Below are positions 33,957 to 56,027 of a stretch of DNA of 64,000 bases, one piece after another (the first letter of the stretch is position 1; each line of letters begins with the position of its first letter). Source of the stretch: Bradyrhizobium sp. Tv2a-2 (GTDB taxonomy: Bacteria; Pseudomonadota; Alphaproteobacteria; Rhizobiales; Xanthobacteraceae); contig NZ_AXAI01000017.1 in the NCBI RefSeq assembly GCF_000472425.1, forward strand, positions 191 through 64,190, read 5' to 3'. Made by a program: the position numbers and the translations under genes. The notes below the pieces were generated by a model. The model searched no databases. It saw only the letters and a list, made by a program, of their open reading frames with translations, and had not been told where the DNA came from.

Positions 33957-35207
33957 ATGACGAAAGGCAGTGTAGGACTGATCGCATTGATGAGCCTTTT
34001 TCTTTCAGGCACAGCCATGGCTCAGGAAAAGATCAAGATCGGCGTCACGGCGACGCTCGAGGGTACCTACACGGTGCTCGGCGAAGACGGCATGCGCGGC
34101 TTCCAGACCGCACTCAACACCTTCGGCAAGAAGATCGGTGACAAGGAACTCGAATATGTTGTCGCCTCGACCGATGCGACGCCGGACTCAGCCGTCCGCG
34201 CGGTACGCAAGCTGATCGAGCAGGACAAGGTGCAGATCCTGCTCTCGCCGCTGTCGGGTGACGAAGGCATCGCGGTGAAGAATTTCGCCAAGACGCATCC
34301 CGAGCTGACCTTCGTGAACGCGGCCTCCGGAGCGCAGGAGACGACTTACGTCGACCCGGCGCCGAATTTCTTCCGCTACAACATGGATGGCGCGCAGTGG
34401 CAGGTGGGTCTCGGCAAATACGCTTATGAAAACAAAGGTTATCGCAAGATCGCTACGGTCGGCGAGGACTATTCCTTCGTCTACACGCAGGTGTTCGGCC
34501 TGGTGCTCGATTTCTGTGGCGCCGGCGGACAGGTAACGAACCGGCAGTGGGTGCCGCTCGGGACCAAGGATTTTGCCTCGGTGATCGCTTCACTGCCTGA
34601 CGATGTGGACGCGATCTATCTCGGGCTCGGCGGCGCCGACGCCGTCAATTTCCTGAATCAATACCAGCAGGCCGGCGGCAAGGCGCATCTGATGGGCGGA
34701 TCGATTTTGGTCGACCAGACCATTCTCTCCGCCAAGGGCAGCGCCAAGAACGCACTGATCGGCACGCTCGCTGCGAGCGGCCAGGCCGATACCTGGGACG
34801 ATCCGGGTTGGCAGAAATTCGTCAAGGCCTATCAGGACTCGTTCCCGCCGGAGAAGCGCTTCCCGAGTCCGTCGCTGCTCGCAACCAACTATTATGACGC
34901 AACGATGGCCCTGATCCTGGCGCTGCGGGCGGTGAATGGCGACCTCAGCAACAATCAGGAAAAGCTGAAGGCAACACTCGCCAAGATCGAGATCGATGCA
35001 CCCAACGGCAAGATCAAGCTCGACTCCAACCGCCAGGCGATCGGCACCAACTTCGTGACCGAGGTGATCGACGACGGCAAAGGCGCGCTGTTTTCCAAGG
35101 TCGTCAAGGTGATCCCAAATGTGAACCAGACGCTTGGCTACGATCCGGCCGTGTTTGCCAAGATCGGTCTGCCCAGCCGCACGATTCCGGAGTGCAAGAA
35201 GTACTGA
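33957..35207 (+). CDS. Branched-chain-type ABC transporter substrate-binding protein
   Basis: 416 residues with a Sec signal (SVGLIALMSLFLSGTAMAQE). The mature part is a type I periplasmic-binding fold of the HAAT/LivJ family: IKIGVTATLEGTYTVLGEDG, VVASTDATPDSAVRAVRKLI, FVNAASGAQETTYVDPAPNF. The family binds amino acids, amides, urea or aromatic acids. It is followed at 110 bp by an AraC regulator and then by permeases and ATPases, so it belongs to the transporter at 36338-41416. Confidence 0.92.
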   Translation: MTKGSVGLIALMSLFLSGTAMAQEKIKIGVTATLEGTYTVLGEDGMRGFQTALNTFGKKIGDKELEYVVASTDATPDSAVRAVRKLIEQDKVQILLSPLSGDEGIAVKNFAKTHPELTFVNAASGAQETTYVDPAPNFFRYNMDGAQWQVGLGKYAYENKGYRKIATVGEDYSFVYTQVFGLVLDFCGAGGQVTNRQWVPLGTKDFASVIASLPDDVDAIYLGLGGADAVNFLNQYQQAGGKAHLMGGSILVDQTILSAKGSAKNALIGTLAASGQADTWDDPGWQKFVKAYQDSFPPEKRFPSPSLLATNYYDATMALILALRAVNGDLSNNQEKLKATLAKIEIDAPNGKIKLDSNRQAIGTNFVTEVIDDGKGALFSKVVKVIPNVNQTLGYDPAVFAKIGLPSRTIPECKKY

Positions 35208-35317
35208 CCTATTTCGCACTTGCGAGCGGGCGACCGGTAGACGGACGATGAGCTTGCATTCCCTCCCCGGATGTTGAACGGTATAAAAAAACAAAAACAT
35301 CCAGCGGGAGGGAGGGC

Positions 35318-36145
35318 ATGAGCCGGGCGCTCGCCGTCTTCCACGGCCGTTTCGGCCGCGCGACGGTGTACCAGTTGAACCGGCCCTTCAACGTGCATGC
35401 GCATCGTGAGGGGCATCTGATCTTTCATGTCGGTGGCACGCCGGCGCAAATCGATGTTTGCGACCGACGTCACCTTCTGACCGACGATTCCGTCGTCGCC
35501 GTCAATCCCTGGGAGCCACATAATTTCCTTCCCACGGATATGGATAACGGCGCGATCTTCTTTGTGCTCTATGTCAATTGGGAGTGGTTCGCGCCGAGTG
35601 TGGCCAACGCGAACGGACTGCGCTTCGGCTCTACCTGTTTCAAGCGAACGCCGAACCTCAGGAAACAGGTCAGACACACGGCCGCGCTCGTCTGCGGGGC
35701 GCCTTCGCTGAGCAGCCTCGATAACGAACTCCGGCAACTGATCGACATCTGCCATGTCGAGAGTTGGCAGCAATCCGCGCCGGCGCAGGATATCAAGGCG
35801 ACGGCAGCCGTTACGGATTTTCGCGTCCGCAAAAGCATCAAGCTGATGTCGGAATGCCCCGGCGCCGAGATCGAACTCGATACCATCGCCCGTGAATCCG
35901 GCCTGTCGCGGCCCCATTTTTATCGCCTGTTCCGCATCCAGACCGGCGTCACCCCGAACCTCTATCTCAACACGCTGATTATGGAGCATGCGCTGGACGC
36001 GCTGGTCGCAACCGAAGCACCGATTGCCGATATCAGCGTCGATCTCGGCTTTTCCTCGCAAAGCGCGTTCACCCGATTCTTTGCCGCCAATGTCGGCCTG
36101 GCGCCGACCGAATACCGTCGTGCGGCCAAGGTTTTGCGGGCGTAA
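35318..36145 (+). CDS. AraC-family regulator of the transporter/Mo-hydroxylase operon
   Basis: 275 residues, start preceded by GGGAGGGAGG. A cupin-like sensor domain occupies residues 1-100 (HAHREGHLIFHVGG, DDSVVAVNPWEPHNF). The C-terminal double HTH reads ELDTIARESGLSRPHFYRLF, RIQTGVTPNLYLNTLIMEHA, then DISVDLGFSSQSAFTRFFAA. It sits inside the locus, between the binding protein and the permease, and is the only regulator there, so it is the likely local activator responding to the imported compound. Confidence 0.9.
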   Translation: MSRALAVFHGRFGRATVYQLNRPFNVHAHREGHLIFHVGGTPAQIDVCDRRHLLTDDSVVAVNPWEPHNFLPTDMDNGAIFFVLYVNWEWFAPSVANANGLRFGSTCFKRTPNLRKQVRHTAALVCGAPSLSSLDNELRQLIDICHVESWQQSAPAQDIKATAAVTDFRVRKSIKLMSECPGAEIELDTIARESGLSRPHFYRLFRIQTGVTPNLYLNTLIMEHALDALVATEAPIADISVDLGFSSQSAFTRFFAANVGLAPTEYRRAAKVLRA

Positions 36146-36337
36146 GATGGCGCGAAAAGATACTGAGGATCAAACGCCCGACCTGCGGCCACGCTAGGAT
36201 GCCCGGTAAACGCGACCCGCAAGAGGTCGCATTTTGCGGGAGGACGCGTCGATGGCGGGGCCGCCAGCCATTTGCCATGCGCCGGATCTCGGCCGGGACG
36301 ATCAGCCAGGCGCCGCTTCGGCGACGAGGTCGCGCAC

Positions 36338-37348
36338 GTGACCAGGTTCATCGAGCGCCATCCGGCGTGGGCGCTGATCGTGATCCTTGCGGTTGCGGTC
36401 CTGCTCTGGCTGATTTTCGCTGTCTGGCCGCCCGGCCTTGAAGAGGCGATCGGCCGGAAGAAGGTTTTCCTCAACGCCGTCCTCAACGGCGTCACGCTTG
36501 GCGGGCTTTATTTCCTGGTCGCGAGCGGCTTCACCCTCATTTTCGGCCTGATGCGCAACGTCAATCTGGCACATGGCTCGCTCTACCTGTTCGGCGGCTA
36601 TGTAGGGTACATCGTAAGCAGCGCGACCGGCTCGTGGATCCTTAGCTTCATCGTCGCCTTCATCGTCGTGGCGCTGATCGGCATCCTGCTGCAGATCGTC
36701 GTGTTCCGCCGCATGGAGGGCCAGGACCTGCGGCAAACGATGGTGACGATCGGGCTTTCAATCGTTTTTGCCGACCTGATGCTCTGGGCATTCGGTGGCG
36801 ACTTCTATCAGATCCAGACACCGAATTGGCTGATCGGACCGGTGGAGATCCCGCTTGTCACGGCGGTGCGCTCCTCGGGCGAGGCAATCTATCTACAGTA
36901 TCCGCTGGTACGCCTCGTCATCTTCCTGGCCTCCGTCGTGATCGGGATCGGTATGTGGCTCGCGCTCAATCGCACGCGGATCGGCATGATCATCCGCGCC
37001 GGCGTCGATGACCGTGACATTCTCGCTGCGACCGGCGTGCGCATTCAGCTTGTATTCGTCCTCGTGTTCGCGCTGGGCGCGGGCCTTGCGGGTATTGCCG
37101 GCGTCGTCGGAGGCACGTTTTCGTCGCTCTCGCCTGGCGAGGACACGCGCTTTCTGCTTGCGTCGCTGGTGGTCGTCATTGTCGGAGGCATGGGCTCGAT
37201 ACCCGGCGCGGCACTTGGCGCGCTGATCATCGGGTTGGCCGAGCAGCTCGGCTCGGTCTACATCCCGACCTATGCAATCGTCGTGACCTTCCTCATCATG
37301 GTCCTGGTGCTGGCGCTGCGCCCACAGGGCCTGCTGGCGAGGCGGTGA
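36338..37348 (+). CDS. ABC transporter permease, LivH family
   Basis: 336 residues from GTG 36338, with GAGG eight bases upstream; an ATG at 36272 is an alternative. After an N-terminal membrane segment (WALIVILAVAVLLWLIF) the LivH core begins: LNAVLNGVTLGGLYFLVASG, FTLIFGLMRNVNLAHGSLYL. The signature loop LAATGVRIQLVFVLVFALGA is present. It is a transmembrane half of the importer with the protein at 37350. The extra N-terminal helix is longer than in E. coli LivH. Confidence 0.9.
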   Translation: MTRFIERHPAWALIVILAVAVLLWLIFAVWPPGLEEAIGRKKVFLNAVLNGVTLGGLYFLVASGFTLIFGLMRNVNLAHGSLYLFGGYVGYIVSSATGSWILSFIVAFIVVALIGILLQIVVFRRMEGQDLRQTMVTIGLSIVFADLMLWAFGGDFYQIQTPNWLIGPVEIPLVTAVRSSGEAIYLQYPLVRLVIFLASVVIGIGMWLALNRTRIGMIIRAGVDDRDILAATGVRIQLVFVLVFALGAGLAGIAGVVGGTFSSLSPGEDTRFLLASLVVVIVGGMGSIPGAALGALIIGLAEQLGSVYIPTYAIVVTFLIMVLVLALRPQGLLARR

Positions 37349-37349: not shown

Positions 37350-38432
37350 ATGTCGCTAAGCCACGGCGCCCACGCTCACGCCACCCCGCCGACCATTGCG
37401 GCGCGCCCCTCCATCCGTACCTGGCCGGAGATCAACAATCCCGCCGCCTGGATCGTCGCCATCATTCTCCTGATCATGCCGCTGATCGCCAACGGCTTCT
37501 TCCTGATCGAGATCTTCGGCACCACGCTGATCCTCGGGATTGTCGCGCTCAGCCTGATGTTTCTTGCAGGCTATGGCGGCATGGTGAGCCTGATGCAGCT
37601 CACCATCGCGGGCTTTGCCGGTTACATGTATGCCATCTTCGGCATGAGCGCGAGCGCGAACATCAGCCTGGGCTGGCCCTGGTGGCTCGCAACGCCGATG
37701 GCACTCGCGCTCGCAACCATCTTCGGGACGCTCGGCGGCGCGCTGGCGGTCCGCACCGCCGGCATCTACACAATCATGATCACGCTCGCGATCGCTGCGG
37801 CGTTCTTCTATTTCACCAATCAGAACTGGCCGCTCTTCAACGGCCACACCGGCATCAACACCATTGCAACTCCGCATTTCTGGGGCGTCGACTGGCGCGG
37901 CGACATTCCATTCTATTATGTGGTGCTCGCGGTTGCCGCGCTCTGCTATTTCGCGGTTGAATATCTGTCGCGGGCGCCGTTTGGGCTGGCGCTGCAAGGC
38001 GTGCGCGACAATCCGCGCCGCATGGCTGCGCTCGGCTTCAATGTCAACGCGCATCGGGTCGCGGCTTATGCCTTCGCTTCCTTCGTTGCTGCGCTCGGCG
38101 GCATTCTTCAGGTCTGGAATTATCGGCAGATTGCCCCGGGCTCCGTCAGTGTCGGGGCCGCCATCGACATTCTGATCATCGCCGTCGTCGGTGGGATCAC
38201 CCGGCCGGTCGGGCCGTTCATCGGCGCCTTCATCTTCGTCATTCTGCGCACCTTCGCGCTCGACTTCCTGGTCAAGATCGGGCTGGACGGCAACCGGTTC
38301 CGCCTTCTGATCGGGCTCGGCTTCCTTGCCGTCGTGTTCTGGTCTTCCGACGGCGTGATTGGGCTTTGGGAGCGCTGGAAGCGCGGTACATCCGATCCGG
38401 CTGGTACGAGCAGGCGCCATGGCCATGGATAG
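37350..38432 (+). CDS. ABC transporter permease, LivM family
   Basis: 360 residues; starts one base after the LivH-type stop. LivM features: LMFLAGYGGMVSLMQLTIAG, FAGYMYAIFGM, and the cytosolic coupling loop RAPFGLALQGVRDNPRRMAA, LGFNVNAHRVAAYAFASFVA. It has about ten membrane helices. It pairs with LivH and the ATPases at 38419 and 39200. Confidence 0.92.
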   Translation: MSLSHGAHAHATPPTIAARPSIRTWPEINNPAAWIVAIILLIMPLIANGFFLIEIFGTTLILGIVALSLMFLAGYGGMVSLMQLTIAGFAGYMYAIFGMSASANISLGWPWWLATPMALALATIFGTLGGALAVRTAGIYTIMITLAIAAAFFYFTNQNWPLFNGHTGINTIATPHFWGVDWRGDIPFYYVVLAVAALCYFAVEYLSRAPFGLALQGVRDNPRRMAALGFNVNAHRVAAYAFASFVAALGGILQVWNYRQIAPGSVSVGAAIDILIIAVVGGITRPVGPFIGAFIFVILRTFALDFLVKIGLDGNRFRLLIGLGFLAVVFWSSDGVIGLWERWKRGTSDPAGTSRRHGHG

Positions 38433-39207
38433 CGTCGCACAACGTCTCTCGGCGGTCGGCGCTGGAGCCGCGCTCGAGCTTCGCGGCGTCACCCGGATGT
38501 TCGGTGCACTCGCTGCGCTGACCGACATCACAATTACGGTGAGGCCGGGTGAGCGGCGTGCGGTGCTCGGCTCGAACGGCGCCGGCAAGACCACGCTGTT
38601 CAACTGCATCACCGGTGATTTTCCACCCTCCTCCGGCACGATCCGTTTCTTTGGCGAGGACATCACCCATTTCCCGCCCTATGAGCGCATCCGCCGTGGG
38701 CTGCGCCGCACCTACCAGATTTCCGCCCTGTTTCCCGGACTCACGGTGCAGGACAACGTCTATCTCGCCTGCCGCGGCGTTTCGCGGGGACGCTTCTCCA
38801 TGCTGCGTCCCGGCCAGAACGATGCGCTGATGCAGTCCGCGGAAGCGTTGGTGCAGGCCGTGCATTTGAGCGCGGTCAAGGACCAGCGCGTTGCCGAGCT
38901 CGCGCACGGGCAGCAGCGGCAGCTCGAGATCGCCCTTGCGCTTGCCGGGGCGCCGCGCTTCATCCTGTTCGACGAGCCGGCAGCGGGACTGTCGCCCGCC
39001 GAACGACTGGAGCTGATCGAGATCCTGACCGCGCTGCCGGCGCATATCGGCTACATCATCATCGAGCACGACATGGATGTGGCGCTGCGCGTCGTCGAGA
39101 GCGTCACGATGATGCACAACGGCCGCATCTTCAAGGAAGGCCTGCCGCGCGAGATCGAAACCGATCGGGAAGTGCAAGAGCTTTATCTCGGAGGCGGCCA
39201 TGAATGA
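38419..39207 (+). CDS. ABC transporter ATP-binding protein, LivG family
   Basis: 262 residues from ATG 38419, overlapping the permease stop by 14 bp. Walker A GSNGAGKTTLFN; signature ELAHGQQRQLEIALAL (the LivG form of LSGGQ); Walker B FILFDEPAAGLSPAE; switch His in YIIIEHDMDVAL. The insert between Walker A and signature (RRTYQISALFPGLTVQDNVY) is typical for the HAAT family. Cytosolic, partner of the LivF-type ATPase fused to the Tm-1-like domain. Confidence 0.93.
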   Translation: MAMDSVAQRLSAVGAGAALELRGVTRMFGALAALTDITITVRPGERRAVLGSNGAGKTTLFNCITGDFPPSSGTIRFFGEDITHFPPYERIRRGLRRTYQISALFPGLTVQDNVYLACRGVSRGRFSMLRPGQNDALMQSAEALVQAVHLSAVKDQRVAELAHGQQRQLEIALALAGAPRFILFDEPAAGLSPAERLELIEILTALPAHIGYIIIEHDMDVALRVVESVTMMHNGRIFKEGLPREIETDREVQELYLGGGHE

Positions 39208-41416
39208 CGCCCGCCGCCCCTCCGCGCCAGCGCTCGAGGTGAAGGGCCTCGATGTCTATTACGGCCATTCGCATGCGCTGCAGGGCGTCAACCTGACGGT
39301 CGAGCAAGGCGTGTTCTCCGTCGTCGGCCGCAACGGCATGGGCAAGACTACGCTGTGCAACGCCATCATGGGCCTGGTGCGCACGAGCGGCGGTTCGGTA
39401 CGCGTCCGTGGCGAAGACATCACTGGCCTTGGGTCGGCCGCGATCGCCCGGCTTGGCGTCGGTTACGTCCCGCAAGGGCGCCGGCTCTGGCGCTCGCTCA
39501 GCGTCGATGAGCATTTACGTCTCGCCGCTGGAATGCGGCGCGGGTCCTGGACCGTCGAGCGCATTTACGAGACCTTCCCGCGGCTGGCCGAGCGCAAGGA
39601 CCATGGTGGCGGCCAGCTCTCCGGCGGCGAGCAGCAGATGCTGGCAATCTCGCGCGCGCTTTTGACCAATCCGATCCTCCTGATCATGGATGAGCCAACG
39701 GAAGGCCTCGCACCGGTGATCGTCGCCCAGGTCGAGGAGATGCTGGTGCGGCTTGGCGACGAAGGCGACATCGCTGTGCTGGTGATCGAGCAGAACATCG
39801 GGGTCGCAACCGCCGTATCGCGCAACGTCGCAGTCATGGTCAACGGACGTGTCAATCGCATCATAGATTCCGCGCAGCTTGCCGCCGACCGCAACCTGCA
39901 ACAACGCCTGCTCGGAGTCGGGCTGCACGCTGAGATCGATTCGGGGCTTGCGGCCGAGCCACAACGCCTCGAGGCCGAACGCGCCCCGCAGCCCGCGCGG
40001 ACGAAAGGACCCGTCCGCATCTATATCTCCAACCCCACATTGCCCACCCGCTGGTCGCAACCGGTACCAATTGCCCGGATCGAGGCGGCGGCACGGACGG
40101 TTTCGACAGGCGTTGCGCGTATCGAAGAGGTGCGGCAGCGGCGCGAAACACCGACCGCGCAAACATCCGGCCCACCGGTCGTTCTGATCGCCGGAACGCT
40201 GGACACCAAGGGCACGGAACTACGCTATATCCGCGACATCATCGCGGCCAGCGGCCTTCGCACGCGGCTGGTCGATCTCTCGACCAGCGGCAAGCCGTCG
40301 ACCTGCGACGTCCCCGCCCAGGAAATCGCGCTCAATCACGCGCGCGGCGGGTCGGCGGTGTTTGGGCCCGATCGCGGCGCCGCGGTGACCGCGATGGCGG
40401 ACGCGTTTGCCAGTTGGGTGCGCCGCCAGGCCAACATCGCCGGTATCATCTCGGCCGGCGGGTCGGGTGGCGCCTCGCTGGTGGCCCCCGGGATGCGTAC
40501 CCTTCCCGTCGGAGTGCCCAAGCTCATCATCTCCTCCATCGCGTCGGGCGATGTCGGCCCCTATGTCGGGCCTGCCGATATCACCATGATGTATTCGGTG
40601 ACCGATGTGCAGGGCCTCAACTCCGTCTCGCGCGCGGTCCTCGCCAACGGCGCCAATGCCGTGATCGGCATGGTGAAGGCGCGGCTCGATCGGCCCGCGG
40701 GCCAGAACCGCACCGCGGCTACCGCCCTTCCCGCTATAGGCATCACAATGTTCGGCGTGACGACGCCGGCCGTGCAGAAGGTCGCCGCCGATCTGCACGA
40801 CGAATTCGAATGCCTGGTATTTCATGCCACCGGCGTCGGCGGCCGTTCTATGGAAAAGCTTGTCGAGTCCGGACAGCTGGCCGCGGTGATCGACCTCACC
40901 ACGACCGAGATCTGCGATCTTCTGATGGGCGGGGTGTTTCCGGCAACCGAAGATCGCTTCGGCGCGATCATTCAAAAGCGCGTGCCCTATGTCGGCTCGA
41001 CGGGCGCACTCGACATGGTCAATTTTGGCGCGCCGGACACAGTCCCCGAGCGCTACGGCAAGCGCAAATTCCATGTCCATAATCCGCAAGTCACCTTGAT
41101 GAGGACCACGCCGGACGAGAACGAGCGCATGGGACGCTGGATCGGCGAGCGGCTGAATCAGATGGATGGGCCGGTCCGCTTCTTCCTGCCTGAGGGGGGC
41201 GTGTCCGCACTCGATGCGCCCGGCCAGCCGTTCTGGGACCCGGAAGCCGACGCGGCACTGTTCCGAACACTGGAGCGCACGGTGCGCCAAACCAGCAATC
41301 GCCAGCTCATTCGCGTCAAGCACAATATCAACGATCCCGAGTTCGCAACCACGATTGTCAGCGCGTTCCGAGCCCTGATCGGGCGCGTGAGCGGACGGCG
41401 CAGAGCTGCGAGGTAA
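39200..41416 (+). CDS. Fusion: LivF-family ATPase + Tm-1-like (UPF0261) domain
   Basis: 738 residues, overlapping the LivG stop by 8 bp. Residues 10-240 are a LivF ATPase (Walker [11 protein letters not shown], signature [16 protein letters not shown], Walker [15 protein letters not shown]). A basic Pro/Ala linker of about 85 residues leads to a complete Tm-1-like domain (about 325-735): [60 protein letters not shown]. Tm-1-like proteins are named after a tomato antiviral protein; the bacterial function is not established. They usually accompany a PEP-hydrolase-like TIM barrel, which is the next gene. The fusion puts an unknown enzyme on an ABC importer. Confidence 0.93.
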
Positions 41417-46906: not shown

Positions 46907-47383
46907 ATGTCCAAGACTGCCCTGCAATTTCGTCACAACGGCCGCGATGTCGCGATCTTCGTCGACGGCGGCACCAATCTCCTGGTCGCACTGCGCGAGC
47001 TGATCGGCGACATGACGCCGAAATTCGGCTGCGGCCAGGGCGGCTGCGGCGCGTGCAGCGTACTGATCGACGGCGAACTTCACCTGGCCTGCCTGACCTT
47101 GGCCGAAACCGCCGCAGGACGCTCGGTCGAGACGCTCGATGGGTTGAAGGAAGGCCCTAATCTGCATCCGCTGCAACGCGCCTTTGCCGACAATTTTGCC
47201 GCCCAATGCGGCTACTGCACACCCGGGATGCTGATGGCGGCAAAAGCGCTGCTCGACCGCAATCCACAGCCGAGCCGCGCCGAGGTGGTCGAAGCAATTT
47301 CGGGCAATATCTGCCGCTGCACCGGCTATGAGCCGATCATCAACGCCGTGCTCGCCGCCGCAGGCAACCGCGCCCGGGCCTAG
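46907..47383 (+). CDS. Mo-hydroxylase 2Fe-2S (small) subunit
   Basis: 158 residues. Plant-type 2Fe-2S motif CGQGGCGACSVLIDGELHLA-C, and the second cluster domain QCGYCTPGMLMAAKALLDRN with ISGNICRCTGYEPII. All eight cluster Cys are present. It is the standard CoxS-type small subunit, five bases after the FAD subunit gene. Confidence 0.94.
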   Translation: MSKTALQFRHNGRDVAIFVDGGTNLLVALRELIGDMTPKFGCGQGGCGACSVLIDGELHLACLTLAETAAGRSVETLDGLKEGPNLHPLQRAFADNFAAQCGYCTPGMLMAAKALLDRNPQPSRAEVVEAISGNICRCTGYEPIINAVLAAAGNRARA

Positions 47384-47394: not shown

Positions 47395-48987
47395 ATGCTG
47401 GAACTGCGCAAGGACATCTTCGCCGACGAGCGGGATGACAATTTGAAGGAGATCGGCAAGGGCACGCAGCGGCAGGACATGCTCGGCCATGTCACCGGCA
47501 CCTCGACCTATTTCGATGATCACAAGCTGCAGGGCATGCTGCATTTGAAGGTCGTGCGCAGCACGCATTCGCATGCCCGCCTGCGCCGCATCGAGACGAC
47601 GGAGGCCGAGCGATCGCCGGGCGTACGACGCATCATCCGTGGCGCCGATGTACCGCGTAATCTCAATACGCTTTTGAGCCTGATCAATTTCGGCAAGGAC
47701 GACGAACCGTCGCTTGCGGTCGACAAGGTCCGTTACAAGGGAGAGCCGATTGTCGCTGTTGTCGCCGACAGCCCGCGCGAAGCCTACGAGGCCGTGGCAA
47801 AAGTACGGGTCGACTACGAGCCGCTGCCGACCGTGTTTGACGTCGAGGATGCGCTGAAGCCTGGCGCGCCTGTCGTCAACGAGACTTATCCAAAGAACGC
47901 GTTCATCTACTACGAAAAATACGATCATCAGAAACTGCGTTTCGGCGACGTCGAGCGAGGCCTCGCGCAGGCCGATCACGTGCTGGAGCAACGTTACCAG
48001 ATGTCACCGATCGAGCACGCGCCGACCGAGACCAACGGCTCGATCACAGCACCCGACACCAATGGCCGTTACACGGTCTACACCTCGACACAGGCGCTCT
48101 TTTTCTCCGTCGACACCTGCGCGAAAGTTCTGGACGTGCCTTCAAACACTTTCCACTTCATCGGTGGCACCGTGGGTGGCGGGTTTGGCGGCAAGGTCGA
48201 CACAATCACCGAGCCGCTCTGCATTCTCGCGGCGATGCTGACAGGACGGCCGGTGCGCTACCTGCTCGGGCGCGAGGAGGAAATGCAATATGGCCCGCCG
48301 CGCGGTGCCGAGCGCATCTACATCAAGGACGGCGTGATGCGCGATGGACGCGTCGTGGCGCGCAAGATCCGCGCCTATTTCGATAGCGGCGCCTATACCC
48401 GGCTATCCAGCTATGCCGCGGTAAAATGTGCCGCGCATCTGCCAGGGCCGTACACGATTCCCAATGTCTATGGCGACGTCTATTGCGTCTTCACGAACCG
48501 GACACCCGCCACCGCGATGCGCGGCTTCGGTGTCACCGCGATGGACTTTGCCATCGAGTGCCAGATGGACAAGCTTGCGCATCTCGTCGGCATGGATCCG
48601 ATGGAGTTTCGCATTCTCAACGCCTATCGGGACGGTGACATGAAGGCGCACAGGCGCGAGGCCAAGAACACGGCGCTGATCGAATGCGTCCAGGTTGCCG
48701 CCGAAAAGGCCAAGTGGCCGCTGCGCGAGGAGTTCAAGCGCGCCTCATCACGCCAAGGGGGCGGTGGCGCACGGGCTACTGTCCCGCCAACGCCGCGCGA
48801 AGCGCATGCTGCGTCTGTTGCGGCTGCCTCGCAACGCACCGTTTACGATAGGCTACCCGCGACGACGTCACGAGAGCCACCGCCGCCTCCTTCCCCTTCG
48901 CCGCCCCCACCCCCTCCTCCGCGCCCGCAGACGCCGTCGCATGGCGCGACCCGTTTCTCCTCTGTGTTCGGCACCAGGAGGCGCTGA
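47395..48987 (+). CDS. Mo-hydroxylase molybdopterin subunit, N-terminal half (split gene)
   Basis: 530 residues. Family features: DMLGHVTGTSTYFDDHKLQG, then TVGGGFGGKVD, PVRYLLGREEEMQYGPPRGA and TPATAMRGFGVTAMDFAIEC. The enzyme sequence stops near residue 455 (AEKAKWPLREEF); the last 70 residues are low-complexity, ending in a Pro-rich run. The AYRCSFR active-site loop of true CO dehydrogenase is absent, so this is a hydroxylase of the xanthine/isoquinoline/nicotinate sort. The missing half is the next gene, 1 bp after the stop. Confidence 0.9.
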   Translation: MLELRKDIFADERDDNLKEIGKGTQRQDMLGHVTGTSTYFDDHKLQGMLHLKVVRSTHSHARLRRIETTEAERSPGVRRIIRGADVPRNLNTLLSLINFGKDDEPSLAVDKVRYKGEPIVAVVADSPREAYEAVAKVRVDYEPLPTVFDVEDALKPGAPVVNETYPKNAFIYYEKYDHQKLRFGDVERGLAQADHVLEQRYQMSPIEHAPTETNGSITAPDTNGRYTVYTSTQALFFSVDTCAKVLDVPSNTFHFIGGTVGGGFGGKVDTITEPLCILAAMLTGRPVRYLLGREEEMQYGPPRGAERIYIKDGVMRDGRVVARKIRAYFDSGAYTRLSSYAAVKCAAHLPGPYTIPNVYGDVYCVFTNRTPATAMRGFGVTAMDFAIECQMDKLAHLVGMDPMEFRILNAYRDGDMKAHRREAKNTALIECVQVAAEKAKWPLREEFKRASSRQGGGGARATVPPTPREAHAASVAAASQRTVYDRLPATTSREPPPPPSPSPPPPPPPRPQTPSHGATRFSSVFGTRRR

Positions 48988-48988: not shown

Positions 48989-50011
48989 ATGGCAAAGCAT
49001 CGCGGACGCGGCATCGCCTCGATCAACTACCCGATCGGCATGAATCTCGGCGGCGATCCCAGCCAGGCGCTGGTCCATTCCAACCCCAGCGGCAAGTTCA
49101 CGGTTTCGCTGTCCTCAATCGACCTCGGCCAGGGCATGAAGTCGGTCACGCGCCAGATCTGTGCCGAGACCCTCGGCGTACCGGTCGAGGACGTCTATGT
49201 CGATACCGCCGATTCCGACACCGGACCGCATTGCATGGGCTCGTTCGCCTCGCGCGGTACCCATCGCGTCGGCAATGCGGTGATGGCGGCGGCCAAGGAA
49301 GCGCGGGGCGTCATGATGGAAGCAGCAGCCGAGGAGCTTGAGGTCAATGCTGCCGATCTCGAGACCGACGGACGCGGCAATATTCACGTCAAGGGCGCTC
49401 CGCATCGGTCAATTTCGACAAAGGACGTCGCGATCGCCGCACAATTCAAGCAGGGCAAGACGATCTCGGGACGCGGCATCTTCCTGGTGCCGCTGTCCGA
49501 CGTCGATCCTGAGACCGGAGAGATGTCGCCGGCGACGTGCTATGCACATGCCTGCCTCGTCGCCGAGGTCGAGGTTGACGACGAGACCGGCGACGTTGCC
49601 ATGATCCGCATGGACAGTGCCTATGAGCTCGGTCGCGCCCTCAACCCACGGCTGGTCGAGCAGCAGCTGGTCGGCGGGGCCTGGATGGGCATCAGCCATA
49701 CGCTCTACGAGACGACGGAGCCGTATTATCCTGATTCAAGCCACGGACCACGCGACTTCGTCGAATATCTGATGCCGGGACCCGGCGATATCTGCCCGCA
49801 CGATATCGCCGTGCTGGAGCGCCCCGCGGCCGACGGGCCGTTCGGTGCCAAGGGCCCCGGCGAGATGTGCGCCAATCCGGTGCTGCCCGCGGTCGCGAAT
49901 GCGATCTTCAATGCCGTCGGCGTACGTATCGATGAATTGCCAATCACGCCCGAACGGGTGTTGCGGGCGATCAAGGCACAAGGCGGCGCGCAGCCGCAGG
50001 CGCGGCGCTGA
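48989..50011 (+). CDS. Mo-hydroxylase molybdopterin subunit, C-terminal half (split gene)
   Basis: 340 residues from ATG 48989 with AGGAGG seven bases upstream. It resumes exactly where the N-terminal half stops: GRGIASINYPIGMNLGGDPS, SIDLGQGMKSVTRQICAETL, YVDTADSDTGPHCMGSFASR, and near the end GAKGPGEMCANPVLPA with the catalytic Glu of the KGxGE type. An own start with a strong ribosome-binding site shows that it is translated as a separate chain. Both halves are intact, so a working two-chain large subunit is plausible. Confidence 0.9.
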   Translation: MAKHRGRGIASINYPIGMNLGGDPSQALVHSNPSGKFTVSLSSIDLGQGMKSVTRQICAETLGVPVEDVYVDTADSDTGPHCMGSFASRGTHRVGNAVMAAAKEARGVMMEAAAEELEVNAADLETDGRGNIHVKGAPHRSISTKDVAIAAQFKQGKTISGRGIFLVPLSDVDPETGEMSPATCYAHACLVAEVEVDDETGDVAMIRMDSAYELGRALNPRLVEQQLVGGAWMGISHTLYETTEPYYPDSSHGPRDFVEYLMPGPGDICPHDIAVLERPAADGPFGAKGPGEMCANPVLPAVANAIFNAVGVRIDELPITPERVLRAIKAQGGAQPQARR

Positions 50012-50022: not shown

Positions 50023-50904
50023 ATGGCGGTTCGCAGCAATATCGTCGGCATCGATAGTCCGGAGGCGCTGGAGAAGGCGCTGCGCGCGGCCTATTATCTC
50101 GCCGACGAGGGGCTTGCGACCGCTGCCTATCTTGGACTCGCGCTGGGCAAGCCGCTGTTGCTGGAAGGCGCACCGGGGGTCGGGAAGACGGAAGCGGCCA
50201 AGGCCATCGCTGCGGTGCTGTGCCGTCGCCTGATCCGCCTGCAATGCTACGAGGGGATCGACGCGGCCGCTGCCCTCTACGAGTGGAACTATCCGCGCCA
50301 GATGCTCGCGATCCGCCAAGCGGGCGACGAGAGCATCGATATCTACGGCGAGTCATTTCTCATTGAGCGGCCGATGCTCGCGGCTTTGCGCGCCGCTGAC
50401 TCCGCCGTACTCCTGATCGATGAGATCGACCGTGCCGACCAGGAGTTCGAAGCCTTTCTGCTCGAATTTCTCTCCGACTTCCAGATCTCCATCCCCGAGC
50501 GCGGCACGGTTCGTGCGTCCGAACGTCCCGTCGTCGTGCTGACCTCGAACCGCACGCGCGATCTTCACGAGGCGCTGCGGCGTCGCTGCGTCTATCACTG
50601 GATCGACTATCCCACGGCGGAGCGCGAGGCGCGCATCGTGATGATGAGGGCATCAAGCGTCGCCGAATCGACAGCGCGCGCGGTCGTCGCGGCTGTCGGC
50701 AAGCTGCGGCGCGAGCCCCTGACCAAGGCGCCCGGAATTGCCGAGGCCGTCGACTGGGCGGAGGCGGCAACCGTGTTGCATCAACGGGGCGCGCGCTGGC
50801 CGGATGCCTTCAGGCGCTCCATCGGCCTCGCGCTGAAGGATGAAGAGGACCTGCGCTTCATGTCGCCGCGGCTGGACGCCCTGATCGCGGAGGCAGCCGC
50901 ATGA
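50023..50904 (+). CDS. MoxR-family AAA+ ATPase (CoxD-like)
   Basis: 293 residues. Walker A LLEGAPGVGKTEAAKAIAAV, Walker B AVLLIDEIDRADQEFEAFLL, sensor 1 VVVLTSNRTRDLHEAL, and a GxRRWP-type finger. CoxD, which this resembles, is needed to mature the Mo-Cu site of CO dehydrogenase by energising the VWA partner. It is followed at a 4-bp overlap by the VWA gene. Confidence 0.9.
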   Translation: MAVRSNIVGIDSPEALEKALRAAYYLADEGLATAAYLGLALGKPLLLEGAPGVGKTEAAKAIAAVLCRRLIRLQCYEGIDAAAALYEWNYPRQMLAIRQAGDESIDIYGESFLIERPMLAALRAADSAVLLIDEIDRADQEFEAFLLEFLSDFQISIPERGTVRASERPVVVLTSNRTRDLHEALRRRCVYHWIDYPTAEREARIVMMRASSVAESTARAVVAAVGKLRREPLTKAPGIAEAVDWAEAATVLHQRGARWPDAFRRSIGLALKDEEDLRFMSPRLDALIAEAAA

Positions 50905-52019
50905 GCGACGAAGCCAAACTGCCACCCGTAGCGCGCGTCTTCGTCACATTCGTCGCACTGTTGCGCGCCAACGGCTTTGCGGTTGCGCCGGAGCAGACCA
51001 CCACGTTCCTCGCTGCGATCGAACTTCTGGGTCCAAAGAGCCTCGCTGACATCCGTCAGGCCGGGCTAGCGACGCTGGCACCGCCGCCCGAGCGACAAGC
51101 CACCTATCACCGGCTGTTCGATATCCACTTTATCGGCCACGAGCAGCTCGCTGCCGACAACGCCGAGGACGAGGAGCTCGTCCGCCTGCAGGAAGAAGGC
51201 GGCGGTGACGAGGAGCCGCTGCTTGCGGACGAGGCGAACGAATCAGGCCTGACCGCGACGCGCGCCGAAGCCCTCGTCCAGCGCCGCTTCGCGCGAGGTG
51301 CGACCGCCGATGCCTTGCGCCGCCTATCCCGCGAGGCACCGTCCCGCCTGCCGCGGCGGCGCGGGTATCGGCACAAGCGGGCACGGCGCGGTCCTTGGGC
51401 TGACCTTCGCCACACCTTGCGTGAATCGGTACGAAGCGACGGCGAGATCCTGCATCTGGCACGGCTGCGGCGACGGACGCGGCTGCGCCGGATTCTCCTG
51501 CTGATCGACGTGTCTGGATCGATGAAGGCGCGGACCGAGGAGAACATGCGGCTTGCCCATACGCTTGCGCAAGCCGTCGCCAATATCGAGGTCTTCACCT
51601 TCAGCACGCGACTGACCCGTGTCACCCGCGCGCTCCGCCTGAAGCGCCGGGAACAGGCGCTGAATGCCGCGGCGCATCTCGTCAGCGACTGGGATGGCGG
51701 CACCCGGATCGGCGACGCGCTGCAAGCCTTTTTGGCCGTGCCGCGATTTGCCGGCTATGCACGTGGCGCCGTGGTCGTCGTCATCTCGGACGGACTGGAA
51801 CGCGGCGATCCCGCAAGCTTGCGCGATGCGGCCGCGAAGCTGTCGCGGCGCGCCTGGCGGCTCAGCTGGCTCACCCCGCTCGCGACCACCACCGGCTTTC
51901 TTCCGCAAACCGAGGCGCTGATTGCGATAGCGCCGTTCGTCGACGACATGGTCGATGGCGGATCGAGCGCAGCGGTCGTTTCACACCTGCTATCACTTGG
52001 ATCTAGGAAAGCGGCATGA
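50901..52019 (+). CDS. VWA-domain protein (CoxE-like)
   Basis: 372 residues, ATG overlapping the MoxR stop by 4 bp. N-terminal helical part with LRANGFAVAPEQTTTFLAAI, a central acidic/Arg-rich stretch, then a von Willebrand A domain with the MIDAS motif LLLIDVSGSMKARTEENM (DxSxS). Partner of the MoxR ATPase in Mo-hydroxylase maturation; other cox accessory genes (coxF/xdhC) are absent from the window. Confidence 0.9.
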   Translation: MSDEAKLPPVARVFVTFVALLRANGFAVAPEQTTTFLAAIELLGPKSLADIRQAGLATLAPPPERQATYHRLFDIHFIGHEQLAADNAEDEELVRLQEEGGGDEEPLLADEANESGLTATRAEALVQRRFARGATADALRRLSREAPSRLPRRRGYRHKRARRGPWADLRHTLRESVRSDGEILHLARLRRRTRLRRILLLIDVSGSMKARTEENMRLAHTLAQAVANIEVFTFSTRLTRVTRALRLKRREQALNAAAHLVSDWDGGTRIGDALQAFLAVPRFAGYARGAVVVVISDGLERGDPASLRDAAAKLSRRAWRLSWLTPLATTTGFLPQTEALIAIAPFVDDMVDGGSSAAVVSHLLSLGSRKAA

Positions 52020-52906
52020 CGGGGATCGTCGACGCGCATCATCACATCTGGCGTCAGGCCGACCTCCCCTGGCTGTCCGGCCCTATGCAACCGCGTATCT
52101 TTGGTCCCTATGAACCGATCCGGCGTGACTACACCATCCAGGAATATCTCGACGATCTCGCAAGCTCAGGCGTGACAGGCTCGGTCTATGTGCAGACCAA
52201 TTGGGCCAGGGAGGACTTCGAGGATGAAGCCGCGTGGGTGCAGCAGACCGCCGACGAGCACGGCTGGCCGCACGCGATTGTCGCTTATGCCAATTTCTCC
52301 GTCGACGACGTCCGTCCCCAGCTCGACCGCCTTGCGCGCTATCCGCTTGTGCGCGGCACGCGCATGCAGTTGCACTGGCACGACAACCCGTTGTACCGCT
52401 TTGCGGAGAGCCCCGATCTTTGCGCCGATCCCACAATCCGGCGCAACATTGCGCATCTCGCCGACTACGGCTGGAGCTTCGATCTGCAAGTCTTCGCGCG
52501 GCAAATGGCGGGTGCCGCCGCCCTCGCCCAGGCCTGTCCGGGGATCACCTTTATCCTGCAACACGCCGGCATGCTTGAGGACCTTTCGCCCGAAGGCCGC
52601 TCCGCCTGGCGCGCCGGCATGGAGCAGCTCGCCGCTTGCCCGAACGTCGTGTCAAAGCTGTCGGGTCTCGGCACGTTTGTGCATCGCAACGATCCCGGGC
52701 ATGTGGCCGACCTGCTGAATCAGACGGTTGCGATCTTCGGCGCCGAGCGCTGCATGTTCGGCTCGAACTTCCCGATCGAGAAATTGTGGACCAGCTACCG
52801 CAGCCTGGTGGACGCCTATCTTGCCGCGGCCACACCGCTTGGCGCGGATCAGCGCGAGGCGATCTTCAGGACAACGGCCACGCGTGTCTACCGCCTAAGT
52901 TCTTAA
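52016..52906 (+). CDS. Amidohydrolase-family protein (lactonase-like)
   Basis: 296 residues; ATG overlaps the VWA stop by 4 bp. Metal motif HHHIW at residues 8-10 (GIVDAHHHIWRQADLPWL), later LQHAGM and FGSNFPIEKLW. This belongs to the amidohydrolase-2 branch of 2-pyrone-4,6-dicarboxylate lactonase and L-fucono-lactonase types. In a Mo-hydroxylase operon it may open a lactone or lactam ring of the hydroxylated product. Confidence 0.88.
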   Translation: MTGIVDAHHHIWRQADLPWLSGPMQPRIFGPYEPIRRDYTIQEYLDDLASSGVTGSVYVQTNWAREDFEDEAAWVQQTADEHGWPHAIVAYANFSVDDVRPQLDRLARYPLVRGTRMQLHWHDNPLYRFAESPDLCADPTIRRNIAHLADYGWSFDLQVFARQMAGAAALAQACPGITFILQHAGMLEDLSPEGRSAWRAGMEQLAACPNVVSKLSGLGTFVHRNDPGHVADLLNQTVAIFGAERCMFGSNFPIEKLWTSYRSLVDAYLAAATPLGADQREAIFRTTATRVYRLSS

Positions 52907-52951: not shown

Positions 52952-53800
52952 ATGCCGCTGGAGATCAAAATCCTGGACTATGGCGATATCGAGCTCGAAT
53001 CGAGCTTCCTTGTCCTCGGCCGCGACTGCGGCCGGACGCGCCGCGTCCTGACGTTGGGCTTTCTGATCCTCGGCGGCCCCTATCCGGTGTTGGTCGATAC
53101 CGGCTACCGCTCCAATCAGATCATGGAAACGCTCGGCATGCGCGGCCTGCAATTCCATGAGAATATGATCGAGAACCAGCTTGCCCGTCACGGCGTGCGG
53201 ATGGGCGACGTACGCTTTGTCTGTCATACACATTTGCATATCGATCACGCCGGGAAGGACGATCTGTTTCCGATGAACACGACCGTCGTACTCAATCGCC
53301 GCGAGCTGGAATATTCCGTCTCCGGGTTGATGCATCCGCAATATCCGGCGCCGGACATCAAGCATCTCGTCGATCGCCTGCACACCAAAGGCGCGCTGCG
53401 TTTCCTCGATCTCGATCTGACCGGTCCGATCGAACTGATGCCGGGCGTCTATTGCGAGGCCGCCAATGCGCACACCGAGGGCTCGATGAACATCCACGTC
53501 CACACCGCCGACGGCATTGCGACGATCTGCGGCGACGTGATCTACGATTTCAACGACCAGATCGTCACGCCCTTCAACGAAATCCAGGATTGGGAGCCGC
53601 GCACCACGGGCAATCACGGCACCAGCAAACGCGCCGAAAAGGCCGCGATCAAGAAGCTGCTCAGCAACGCGCGCTATCTCCTTCCGGTTCACGACAGACC
53701 AGCAAAAATCGAAGGCGGCACGGTCGTCGGACGGCTGCATGACCAGGTGCCCGGCCCCATCGTTCAGACCCTGCCGCGGCGCGATTGGTTTCCCGCCTGA
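52952..53800 (+). CDS. Metallo-beta-lactamase-fold hydrolase (N-acyl-homoserine-lactonase family)
   Basis: 282 residues. Metal motif HTHLHIDHAGKD (HxHxDH) with VLVDTGYRSNQIM before it, then ANAHTEGSMNIHVHTADGIA, GDVIYDFND and LLPVHDRP. The arrangement matches the AhlA/AiiA-like dinuclear lactonase family. A ring-opening role in the pathway is more likely here than quorum quenching given the neighbours, but this is inference. Confidence 0.88.
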   Translation: MPLEIKILDYGDIELESSFLVLGRDCGRTRRVLTLGFLILGGPYPVLVDTGYRSNQIMETLGMRGLQFHENMIENQLARHGVRMGDVRFVCHTHLHIDHAGKDDLFPMNTTVVLNRRELEYSVSGLMHPQYPAPDIKHLVDRLHTKGALRFLDLDLTGPIELMPGVYCEAANAHTEGSMNIHVHTADGIATICGDVIYDFNDQIVTPFNEIQDWEPRTTGNHGTSKRAEKAAIKKLLSNARYLLPVHDRPAKIEGGTVVGRLHDQVPGPIVQTLPRRDWFPA

Positions 53801-53818
53801 GCTTGCGAGGACCGACCG

Positions 53819-55387
53819 ATGACACACGTCACCCTGCGGAGCGAATTCGAAAACCTCATCGATCCCTATGCGCCAGTCGGCCAGGTTGGCACGGGCTTTG
53901 AGTTTACCGAGGGTCCGATCTGGCATCCGGTCGACCACCACCTGTTGTTCTCAGATATGCCGGCCGACGTGCGAAGGCGTTGGGACGCGCAGCGCGGTGT
54001 CGCCGAGGTCAAGCGCCCCTCGAACAAATGCAATGGAATGACCTATGACGCGGAGCTCAATCTGATCGTCTGCGAGCACGCCACGTCATCACTCATTCGC
54101 GAACGCCGCGATGGGCGGCGCGAGGTGCTCGCCTCACATTTCCAGGGACAGGAGCTCAACAGCCCCAACGATGTCTGCGTGCATTCCTCCGGCGCGATCT
54201 ATTTTTCCGATCCCTGGTACGGACGCATGCCGGTCTATGGCGTCGAGCGGCCGCGCCAGCTCGGCTTCCAGGGCGTGTATCGGGTACCGCCCGGCGGCGG
54301 TGAGCCGAGGCTGCTGGTCGATCGCGACTTGTTCGACCAGCCCAACGGCCTGTGTTTTTCGCCGGACGAACGGCGGCTCTATGCCAACGACACCACGCAG
54401 GCTCTGATCCGTGTGTTCGATGTGCAAGCCGATGGCTCTCTTACCAATTCGCGTGTCTTTGCCAGCGGCATCCGCTCCGAGCTCGAGCCCGGCGTGCCTG
54501 ATGGCATGAAGTGCGATCAGCGCGGCAACGTCTGGGTCACCGCGCCCGGCGGCGTGTGGGTCTATTCGCCAAATGGAGAGTTGCTCGGGAAAGTCCGTGT
54601 CCCTGAGCTCGTCGCCAATCTCGCCTGGGGCGGTGCCGACTTCCGCACCCTTTATCTGACGGCGACCCATTCGGTTTATGCGATCCCGACCAAGGTCGGC
54701 CCGCGCCATGAGCCCTATATGAGCGCCAAACGCGGCACCGGTGCTGCTTCGTCCGCACAGACGCCCAAGATGACGGAGGGCGATATGCGGCTGGATCCAC
54801 AGCGCTGCGCGATGATTATCCAGGACCTGCAGAACGACGTCATCATGGATGGCGGCGCGTTTGCGGAATCCGGCGCACCGGCACATGCGCGGCAACAGCA
54901 CGTGGTCGACAACGTCCGCCGTCTAGCCGATGCCGCGCGGGCTCGCGGCGTCGTCATTATTCATGTCTGGTTCGTTGTCGAGCCCGGCGCGCCCGGCGTC
55001 ACCTTGAATGCGCCGTTGTTCGAGGGGCTGGTTGACAGCAAGGCGATGGTGCGCGGCAGCTGGGGCGCAGCGCCTGTGTCCGGACTGGAGCCGCGGCCCG
55101 GCGATTTCATCGTCGAGAAAATGCGCATGAGCGCCTGGGAAGGCACGCGGCTTGAGACGATTCTCAAGGCCACCGGCCGCGACTTCATCGTCAACACCGG
55201 TGCATGGACGAACATGTCCGTCGAGCACACCGCGCGCACCGGCGCAGACAAGGGCTACTTCATGGTTACGCCGGAGGACTGCTGTTCGACCATGAATGCC
55301 GAGTGGCACAACGCCTCGATCAACTTCGCCCTGCAGAATGTCTCCGTCGTCACCAATGCCGATACAGTCATCAAGGCGCTGGGGTGA
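53819..55387 (+). CDS. Fusion: SMP-30/gluconolactonase + isochorismatase-like domain
   Basis: 522 residues. Residues 25-300 form an SMP-30 propeller with its metal ligands: FEFTEGPIWHP (Glu), LNSPNDVC (Asn) and VPDGMKCD (Asp). Residues 330-520 form an isochorismatase-like (cysteine hydrolase) domain: CAMIIQDLQNDVIMDGG (Asp) and IVEKMRMSAWEGTRLETIL (Lys). Its nucleophile segment is GAWTNMSVEHTARTG, with Ser467 (codon TCC at 55217) where the family has Cys. The combination of a lactonase and an amide-hydrolase fold suggests sequential ring-opening and deamination, the second step by an altered chemistry or not at all. Confidence 0.9.
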   Translation: MTHVTLRSEFENLIDPYAPVGQVGTGFEFTEGPIWHPVDHHLLFSDMPADVRRRWDAQRGVAEVKRPSNKCNGMTYDAELNLIVCEHATSSLIRERRDGRREVLASHFQGQELNSPNDVCVHSSGAIYFSDPWYGRMPVYGVERPRQLGFQGVYRVPPGGGEPRLLVDRDLFDQPNGLCFSPDERRLYANDTTQALIRVFDVQADGSLTNSRVFASGIRSELEPGVPDGMKCDQRGNVWVTAPGGVWVYSPNGELLGKVRVPELVANLAWGGADFRTLYLTATHSVYAIPTKVGPRHEPYMSAKRGTGAASSAQTPKMTEGDMRLDPQRCAMIIQDLQNDVIMDGGAFAESGAPAHARQQHVVDNVRRLADAARARGVVIIHVWFVVEPGAPGVTLNAPLFEGLVDSKAMVRGSWGAAPVSGLEPRPGDFIVEKMRMSAWEGTRLETILKATGRDFIVNTGAWTNMSVEHTARTGADKGYFMVTPEDCCSTMNAEWHNASINFALQNVSVVTNADTVIKALG

Positions 55388-55400
55388 GTGAAGGCCACCG

Positions 55401-56027
55401 ATGCCCAAGCTCCTGCACCTCGCCTGCTCGCCGCGCGCCGATTCCGAATCGGCGGCCGGAGCGCGGGTCTTTCTCGATCGCTTTCGCCAGGCGCGGCCGG
55501 ATTGGGACGTCGACGTCATGGACTTGTGGCGAGAACGCCTGCCGGAGTTTGCGGGCGCCCTTCTCGAAGCCAAATACGCTCGCATCAAGGGGATGACCTT
55601 CACGGATGCGCAGCGTGATCAGTTTGCCGTCGCAGAACGCATTGCCGTCCGCTTCTCGCTCGCCGAGCGCGTGCTGATCTCCACCCCGATGTGGAACTTC
55701 GGCATTCCGTACAAGCTGAAGCAATGGTTCGACATCATCATCCAGCCCGGATTGACGTTCCGCTTTGATCCGTCCGACGGCTATGTGCCCCTGCTCAAGG
55801 ACCGGCCGACGCTCGTTATCCTCGCCAGCGGCAGCGACTACACTACCGGCATGAACCGCGGCCGCACTGACATGGCGACGCCCTATTTGCGCGAGGCGCT
55901 CCGCTTCGTCGGCGTCAAGGATGTGCGCTTCGTGGCGATCGGTCCCACGACTGGGGCGCCTGAGCCGATTCGGTCGGCACGCGAGAACGCACATCGGCGC
56001 CTTGCTGAAATGGCTACAAGATTCTGA
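55401..56027 (+). CDS. FMN-dependent azoreductase-like flavodoxin-fold oxidoreductase
   Basis: 208 residues. The flavodoxin-like fold of the AzoR/NAD(P)H quinone reductase family is visible: LLHLACSPRADSESAAGARV, then RVLISTPMWNFGIPYKLKQW (MWNF motif contacting the flavin) and LVILASGSDYTTG. It transfers two electrons from NAD(P)H to quinones or azo compounds. It is the last gene of the operon and precedes a strong hairpin. Confidence 0.9.
   Translation: MPKLLHLACSPRADSESAAGARVFLDRFRQARPDWDVDVMDLWRERLPEFAGALLEAKYARIKGMTFTDAQRDQFAVAERIAVRFSLAERVLISTPMWNFGIPYKLKQWFDIIIQPGLTFRFDPSDGYVPLLKDRPTLVILASGSDYTTGMNRGRTDMATPYLREALRFVGVKDVRFVAIGPTTGAPEPIRSARENAHRRLAEMATRF

Follow-up and report, generated by a model that had tools for sequence, protein, structure and literature searches.

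Here we describe a block of 20 genes at positions 33957-56027 of the window, a stretch of 64,000 nucleotides (nt) of DNA from Bradyrhizobium sp. Tv2a-2 (contig NZ_AXAI01000017.1). The block combines an importer, a Tm-1-like protein, a large flotillin and a molybdenum hydroxylase (Mo-hydroxylase), and it belongs to a widespread operon type for which the comparison of related sequences gives strong signs of an assembly centred on the flotillin. As the preliminary description had stated, all 20 genes lie on the + strand; their open reading frames (ORFs) are intact and all could be assigned to families with Pfam. The tight spacing it had reported is also found. The gene of the substrate-binding protein is separated by 110 nt from that of an AraC-family regulator (35318-36145) and this by 192 nt from the first permease gene, from which an 18-gene run extends from 36338 to a flavodoxin-like gene; its 17 junctions range from -14 to +45 nt, and only one exceeds 30 nt. 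The AraC regulator had been placed at the head of the block, which is not the case since the substrate-binding-protein gene comes first. A scan of 33500-36500 for sigma-70-type promoters gave no promoter-like site, and terminators were at chance level.

The importer is a complete set of the HAAT type. It consists of a periplasmic substrate-binding protein with a Peripla_BP_6 domain (33957-35207), which is kept in relatives, two BPD_transp_2 permeases (36338-37348, with a GTG start, and 37350-38432) and two ABC_tran ATPases. The ORF of ATPase 1 opens at 38359, and the ATG at 38419 was taken as its start (38419-39207). ATPase 2 is fused in a single frame to the Tm-1-like UPF0261 protein, with PTRWS in the linker (39200-41416). 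The UPF0261 part contains both Pfam domains, scores 599.1 bits with NCBIfam NF002673 (cut-off 520) and matches the solved Tm-1 structure 3wry at E 2e-98. It is followed by a PEP-hydrolase-like TIM barrel (PF09370; 41419-42252), for which 2p10 is a solved relative.

The flotillin (42279-45179) has 966 amino acids (aa) counted from the ATG at 42279 and lies well above the Pfam cut-offs, with 64.4 bits for Band_7/SPFH (23.6) and 131 bits for Flot (27). Beyond this copy, no Flot-domain gene was found in the 8.5 Mb host genome. The protein is composed of a predicted N-terminal membrane helix (residues 3-33 in the structure model), the SPFH domain, a helical region of about 650 residues, the Flot domain and a disordered tail. 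Because positive charges directly follow the helix, the bulk of the protein is suggested to be cytoplasmic. A sequence search of the PDB returned nothing at 0.001, but the fold comparison did find a match; its top entry is the flotillin complex 9bq2 with a Z of 15.9, level with other SPFH entries.

For the taxonomic comparison the PEP-hydrolase was used as bait, with E 1e-20 for a family-level set and E 1e-60 for order-level and phylum-level sets. Within the family 43 of 296 genomes gave a match, within the order 113 of 397 and within the phylum 27 of 398. Sixty PEP-hydrolase loci, picked by hand and not a random draw, were read for their context. The flotillin adjoins the PEP-hydrolase in 43 of them: 35 have Mo-hydroxylase genes, seven have none (L094-L096, L101, L103, L107 and L114) and one is interrupted inside the flotillin (L111). 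When GTDB contigs were scanned with the N-terminus of the flotillin, at least 568 relatives were found, and the best 80 of the 568 were read. These contigs overlap genomes met otherwise, so that the pooled counts hold repeats (L304 and L275, for example, are one place). The pooled flotillin set comprises 123 of the 140 loci examined, the other 17 being without a flotillin match of 150 bits; five later flotillin loci without an adjacent PEP-hydrolase stand outside these counts.

The pooled loci show a largely constant order. The PEP-hydrolase lies at most 120 nt upstream of the flotillin in 114 of 119 loci and within 900 nt in the remaining five, SRPBCC protein 1 is found downstream of the flotillin in 110 of 111, and the Mo-hydroxylase is present in 71 of the 102 loci that have enough downstream DNA. 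The same gene order occurs in many alphaproteobacterial families and orders, and a partial order in metagenome-assembled genomes of Gammaproteobacteria; apart from the latter, relatives of the flotillin were met in Bradyrhizobium, Phreatobacter, Methylobacterium, Silicimonas, Boseongicola, Sneathiella and Defluviicoccus. The block was also met in two Bradyrhizobium diazoefficiens strains, SZCCT0423 and SZCCT0449. Plasmid records hold the operon in the form of the window in Yoonia and Shinella and, in a second form described below, in Variovorax paradoxus VAI-C. Its carriers thus include many bacteria of soil and sea. The recurrence of this order in distant taxa places the block beyond chance. 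The preliminary description would have been refuted had flotillin and Mo-hydroxylase genes never occurred together in other genomes, but they do; the conserved order and the only Flot gene found in the host support one system to which the flotillin belongs. We met no description of the block among the papers listed from the open-licence literature that we searched, which is not the same as absence in print, and no paper was found there that pairs a flotillin with a Tm-1-like protein, a molybdenum hydroxylase or an SRPBCC protein.

The fusion of ATPase 2 with the Tm-1-like protein follows the flotillin closely. Both parts form one ORF in 120 of the 121 flotillin loci in which both were read, and in the sole unfused locus (L172) a stop interrupts the Tm-1 part. 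None of 28 Tm-1 loci without flotillin is fused, and five of these 28 have an importer alongside. The motif P[TN]RW is found in 111 of 111 fused linkers and in eight of nine further loci; PxRW is absent from all 33 ORFs of loci without flotillin. Two loci are fused without an adjoining flotillin (L104 and L112), and for L104 the half with the flotillin lies elsewhere in the genome. Plant Tm-1-like proteins have the same pair of UPF0261 and TIM barrel; according to the available part of PMC5028733 the two domains are fused to each other there, whereas in the block UPF0261 sits on the importer ATPase and the TIM barrel is a protein by itself. The same source proposes that the plant Tm-1 family derives from gene transfer. 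A PEP-hydrolase-like domain is also found within ORFs of about 707-735 aa, near another PEP-hydrolase gene (L048:4987-7110 and G024:C1:7701720), and these long ORFs possibly resemble the plant fusion.

The Mo-hydroxylase is of the xanthine-dehydrogenase type, with a flavin adenine dinucleotide (FAD) subunit (FAD/CO_deh_flav_C; 46083-46901), a subunit with two [2Fe-2S] clusters (46907-47383) and the Mo subunit in an N-half with MoCoBD_1 (47395-48987, 530 aa including a tail) and a C-half with MoCoBD_2 (48989-50011). The motifs GGGFGGK, KGPGE and CGQGGCGAC were found. The NCBIfam equivalog cut-offs for CODH, XdhA, 4-HBA-CoA reductase and PucD were not reached; the halves, scored apart, gave at best 277.6 and 200 bits against cut-offs of 783.65 and 994.55. 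A MoxR/CoxD-type AAA ATPase (50023-50904) and a VWA_CoxE protein (50901-52019) follow, so the split enzyme with CoxD/CoxE-like genes is present as it had been described. The C-half starts at the ATG at 48989 with the Shine-Dalgarno sequence AGGAGG just upstream (48976-48981). The Mo subunit is encoded by two genes in 33 of 33 block loci; in 30 the genes are coupled (-1 to +3 nt) and in three they have 582-1016 nt of other DNA between them. We considered a frameshift or an assembly error and rejected it, because relatives have the start, the stop and the Shine-Dalgarno as well. Extra ORFs were seen between the halves in three loci (L119:4338-4688, L127:15092-15454 and L116:1890-2876), and those of L119 and L127 begin with the motif CHCGAV, which we take to be zinc-binding and GFA-like.

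The N-half of this enzyme carries a C-terminal tail. About 466 enzyme residues are followed by a tail of 55-179 residues, in which proline and alanine make up 45.5%, compared with 16% of the enzyme part. In the window it covers residues 467-530 (48793-48984) and ends in the peptide RFSSVFGTRRR (48952-48984), whose arginine codons overlap the AGGAGG. The tip is conserved, with TRFSSVFGTRRR as its commonest form (25 of 72) and RFSSVxGxRRR as its type; the linker varies in sequence as well as in length. Complete N-halves of at least 50% identity (n=114) divide into 87 tailed, 26 tailless (440-470 aa) and one broken, five that are cut by contig ends having been set aside (L040, L046, L159, L192 and L203). 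Every one of the 87 tails terminates in R[RK]R, 86 as RRR and one as RKR. The strict expression RF..RR[RK] fits 79 of them, and the other eight were read directly (for instance SPFVSGTRRR, SFISGTRRR and RMSSLLGTRRR). Judged from sequence alone, the tail has the pattern of a cargo tail, a flexible linker with a conserved terminal peptide.

Relatives without the tail provide a natural control. Of 199 genomes of another family, 37 have a close C-half, and the reading of all 37 loci gave 10 tailed enzymes, 26 tailless ones at 440-470 residues and one with a broken frame. A block-type flotillin is found in all 10 tailed genomes at E 1.1e-140 or better, on the same contig in eight and in fragmented assemblies in two. 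No flotillin lies beside the tailless enzyme in any of the 26 stretches fetched, some of which are short, and ordinary flotillins lie elsewhere in some of the tailless genomes. In L267 and L268, tailless loci for which 20 kb were read, the AraC regulator, SRPBCC 1, the FAD and Fe-S subunits, both halves of the Mo subunit, MoxR, CoxE and the amidohydrolase are present; no flotillin, SRPBCC 2, Tm-1 or PEP-hydrolase was found over these 20 kb. Since tailless loci are without both, flotillin and SRPBCC 2 are the candidate partners of the tail. The flanks of L267 and L268 (RND efflux, aldehyde dehydrogenase, aminotransferases and other importers) indicate no common substrate. A distant split enzyme with 37-39% identity (L269) is also tailless, and therefore the split probably predates the tail.

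A second type of the operon exists. It retains the importer, the ATPase-Tm-1 fusion, in most cases the PEP-hydrolase, the flotillin and SRPBCC 1, and the Mo-hydroxylase is replaced: SRPBCC 2 is joined via a linker to a zinc-type medium-chain dehydrogenase/reductase. This fusion was found in 35 type 2 loci and in none of the 80 loci with a Mo-hydroxylase, while eight further loci were assigned to neither type by the test. The hydrolases of the type 2 loci scanned are an amidohydrolase, an alpha/beta hydrolase and in some an FAA hydrolase. The flotillin differs in length between the types: in type 1 it has 864-1183 aa, with a median of 969 (n=80), and in type 2 it has 562-784 aa, with a median of 686 (n=35); the open frames of flotillins met elsewhere have mostly 521-610 aa and in a few cases 685-886. 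The preliminary description had joined uptake and hydroxylation in one system. The comparison supports a link between uptake and enzymes, in view of the ATPase-Tm-1 fusion and of a tail that tracks the flotillin block; it does not support an obligatory Mo-hydroxylase, in view of the second type and of Mo-hydroxylases without flotillin.

Several further genes were met around these operons. In L136:3-1796 a PEP-hydrolase domain is fused to an AAA lid and a Fis-type helix-turn-helix; this is perhaps a regulator of the second operon type, with the enzyme fold as sensor. L223, on the Variovorax paradoxus VAI-C plasmid (CP063167.1), is a second-type operon of a betaproteobacterium and has a ring-hydroxylating dioxygenase cluster as its neighbour. 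On a plasmid of Martelella sp. AD-3 (L226), a flotillin-domain gene directly follows an annotated bacteriorhodopsin gene and ABC permease genes. A second, diverged flotillin of 879 aa (L217:6185-8824) is found in the genome, described below, that carries the block cut in two.

The two SRPBCC proteins of the block (45186-45623 and 45626-46069) had been labelled CoxG-like, a label that we do not keep. Neither matches the CoxG family of Pfam, presumably PF06240, and only Polyketide_cyc2 is found at E <= 0.001. The model of SRPBCC 1 has a predicted local distance difference test score (pLDDT) of 94.5, and apart from uncharacterised bacterial proteins the closest folds, and the closest named ones, are plant PYR/PYL abscisic-acid receptors (Z about 19-21). 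No solved CoxG was seen among the 50 fold matches listed. The likeness of the modelled fold is that of a ligand-binding pocket and not of a function. The PYR/PYL-like protein stands near the Tm-1-like gene, and the plant PYL family has, like the Tm-1 family, been proposed to come by gene transfer. CoxG itself reportedly extracts quinone for CO dehydrogenase, according to a report from 2025.

The last four genes of the block encode an Amidohydro_2 hydrolase (52016-52906) and a metallo-beta-lactamase-fold hydrolase (52952-53800), both lactonase-like, an SMP-30/isochorismatase fusion (53819-55387) and a Flavodoxin_2 protein that resembles flavin mononucleotide (FMN) azoreductases and quinone reductases (55401-56027). 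The comparison of the binding protein, the amidohydrolase and the SMP-30/isochorismatase fusion with solved structures gave no close characterised relative. For this reason our view of the substrate stays general, and we propose, weakly, no more than a small ring compound that is opened by the hydrolases.

Some parts of the block resemble known systems. Nicotinate dehydrogenase 3hrd, which we take to be from Eubacterium barkeri, is the best solved match of the N-half and has its Mo subunit split at the identical place. It differs in that its chain A has only 425 residues and thus no room for a tail of the block type, and we know of no flotillin link for this enzyme. Cargo proteins of encapsulins and microcompartments carry a variable disordered linker with a short conserved terminal peptide. 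The tail of the N-half is built in the same way, but the block has no shell protein. The CO dehydrogenase cluster coxMSLDEFG, as given in the available part of PMC4240915, shares with the block FAD, Fe-S and Mo subunits, a CoxD-like AAA protein, a CoxE-like VWA protein and a nearby SRPBCC protein, and CoxG is proposed there to recruit CO dehydrogenase to the membrane. In contrast, the block misses the CoxL cut-off by far, has a split Mo subunit, an SRPBCC protein outside the CoxG family and a flotillin, and CoxF was not seen in it. A small CoxG-like protein brings the soluble glycerol-3-phosphate dehydrogenase of Sulfolobus to the membrane (PMC11962113); it belongs to another SRPBCC family, and neither a flotillin nor a Mo enzyme appears in the available part of that source. 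The HflK/HflC cage holds AAA+ proteases and SPFH cages can enclose enzymes, as stated in the accessible part of PMC11260169. Such cages and the block have in common an SPFH protein, membrane contact, a coiled coil and the fold match to 9bq2. The block flotillin, for which a cage is a proposal, differs by its place inside a catabolic operon, by having no protease cargo and by its size of 966 aa compared to the 422-residue chain of 9bq2.

We suggest, with a probability of about one half, that the block encodes a flotillin-organised assembly for catabolic import and oxidation. The HAAT importer would take in a small organic compound, and the Tm-1-like enzyme, held on the flexible linker of ATPase 2, would place the first cytoplasmic step at the importer with the PEP-hydrolase-like enzyme as its partner. 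The flotillin, anchored by its one N-terminal helix, would assemble into a cage or microdomain at the membrane's inner face. The disordered tail of 55-179 residues with its conserved peptide would hold the Mo-hydroxylase there, and we infer that it may dock on the flotillin or on SRPBCC 2; channelling may also occur. The two SRPBCC proteins could shuttle between membrane and enzyme with a hydrophobic ligand, which may be the substrate, an intermediate or a quinone, and the soluble hydrolases and the reductase would complete ring opening. In type 2, the direct fusion to SRPBCC 2 would bring the dehydrogenase to the same platform. In the simplest reading, the system would have arisen when two modules that occur apart in relatives joined with the flotillin, importer, Tm-1 and PEP-hydrolase (as in L047, L244 and L245) on the one hand and SRPBCC and Mo-hydroxylase (as in L267 and L268) on the other, each acquiring a flexible tether upon joining. 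A bolder version, which we regard as rather doubtful, is a raft-based metabolosome: a membrane-anchored flotillin compartment fed directly by the importer, with the first enzyme on the importer ATPase and with redox enzymes targeted by a peptide (Mo-hydroxylase) or by SRPBCC fusion (dehydrogenase). The length of the flotillin coil would then adapt the height of the compartment to its cargo, the protein having about 970 aa where the cargo is the large Mo enzyme and about 690 aa where it is the small dehydrogenase.

A number of observations weigh against a flotillin-organised assembly. The structure model of the flotillin is weak, with a mean pLDDT of 61 and mostly 66-88 for the SPFH residues 70-190. 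In five second-type loci of another family the PEP-hydrolase is not adjacent to the flotillin. In one genome (L104/L216) the block is split: importer, Tm-1 and PEP-hydrolase lie about 170 kb from flotillin and Mo-hydroxylase, and both halves are kept. The Variovorax linker has FTRW in place of PxRW. G548 keeps fusion and tail, although its assembly, which is 89% complete, yielded no flotillin. The genomes of the five second-type loci just mentioned combine a tailless Mo-hydroxylase with this flotillin at another place, and thus a flotillin alone does not demand a tail. The arginine codons of the tip double as the Shine-Dalgarno of the C-half in most loci. That RRR is a by-product of this site was nevertheless rejected: it is retained in five loci with the C-half 582-1563 nt away, two of which write it in codons that are not purine-rich and make no Shine-Dalgarno (CGC CGC CGC and CGT CGT CGG), and it is therefore kept as protein. 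Among these five, L116 is weaker, as another ORF begins about 17 nt on. Finally, tail against no tail is a single change on the tree of the C-half (CutL_C), with support 100/100, so that the sequences compared present the association of tail and flotillin as one evolutionary event, long kept, and not as many.

This single change would be expected if shared ancestry were the whole explanation, one clade having gained tail and flotillin by chance and kept both. We consider this highly unlikely, because the tip stays near-invariant over several orders while the linker varies over 55-179 residues and in sequence, a pattern not expected from drift. The tail might also act as an independent signal for membrane binding or for chaperones: its cationic C-terminus could contact the membrane, or it could be read by the MoxR/CoxE maturation pair or SRPBCC 1 and not by the flotillin. 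Its tip is indeed basic and aromatic (RFSS...RRR), and MoxR, CoxE and SRPBCC 1 are present in 13 of 13 type 1 loci with sufficient DNA (L032-L039 and L041-L045). The tailless L267 and L268 have these three as well, so that their presence by itself does not require a tail, and this explanation seems improbable to us. More weight has to be given to an ordinary catabolic operon, in which the flotillin is a general membrane organiser that is merely co-transcribed, the tail and linkers share no partner and the SRPBCC proteins are enzymes or carriers. All enzymes come from common catabolic families, the Mo-hydroxylase module occurs in relatives without an adjoining flotillin, and the second-type flotillin occurs without Mo-hydroxylase. 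Yet in nearly all pooled loci the flotillin lies within the operon and is flanked by PEP-hydrolase and SRPBCC 1, it is the only Flot gene found in its genome, and both the tail and the ATPase fusion track it. We therefore hold an ordinary operon to be possible but on the unlikely side.

New in this study are the conserved split of the Mo subunit, the tail with its tip and its absence where no flotillin adjoins, the ATPase-Tm-1 fusion and the second operon type. It is an open question what purpose bacterial flotillins serve, since they have diffuse partners. This operon names candidate partners: an importer that bears an enzyme on a linker, the pair of SRPBCC proteins and an oxidoreductase with a 64-residue tail. 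The tail is removable and defined in sequence, and natural relatives exist without it. If the flotillin does recruit this cargo, raft proteins would organise Gram-negative metabolism much as microcompartments do, and the tip of the tail would be a new short targeting tag.

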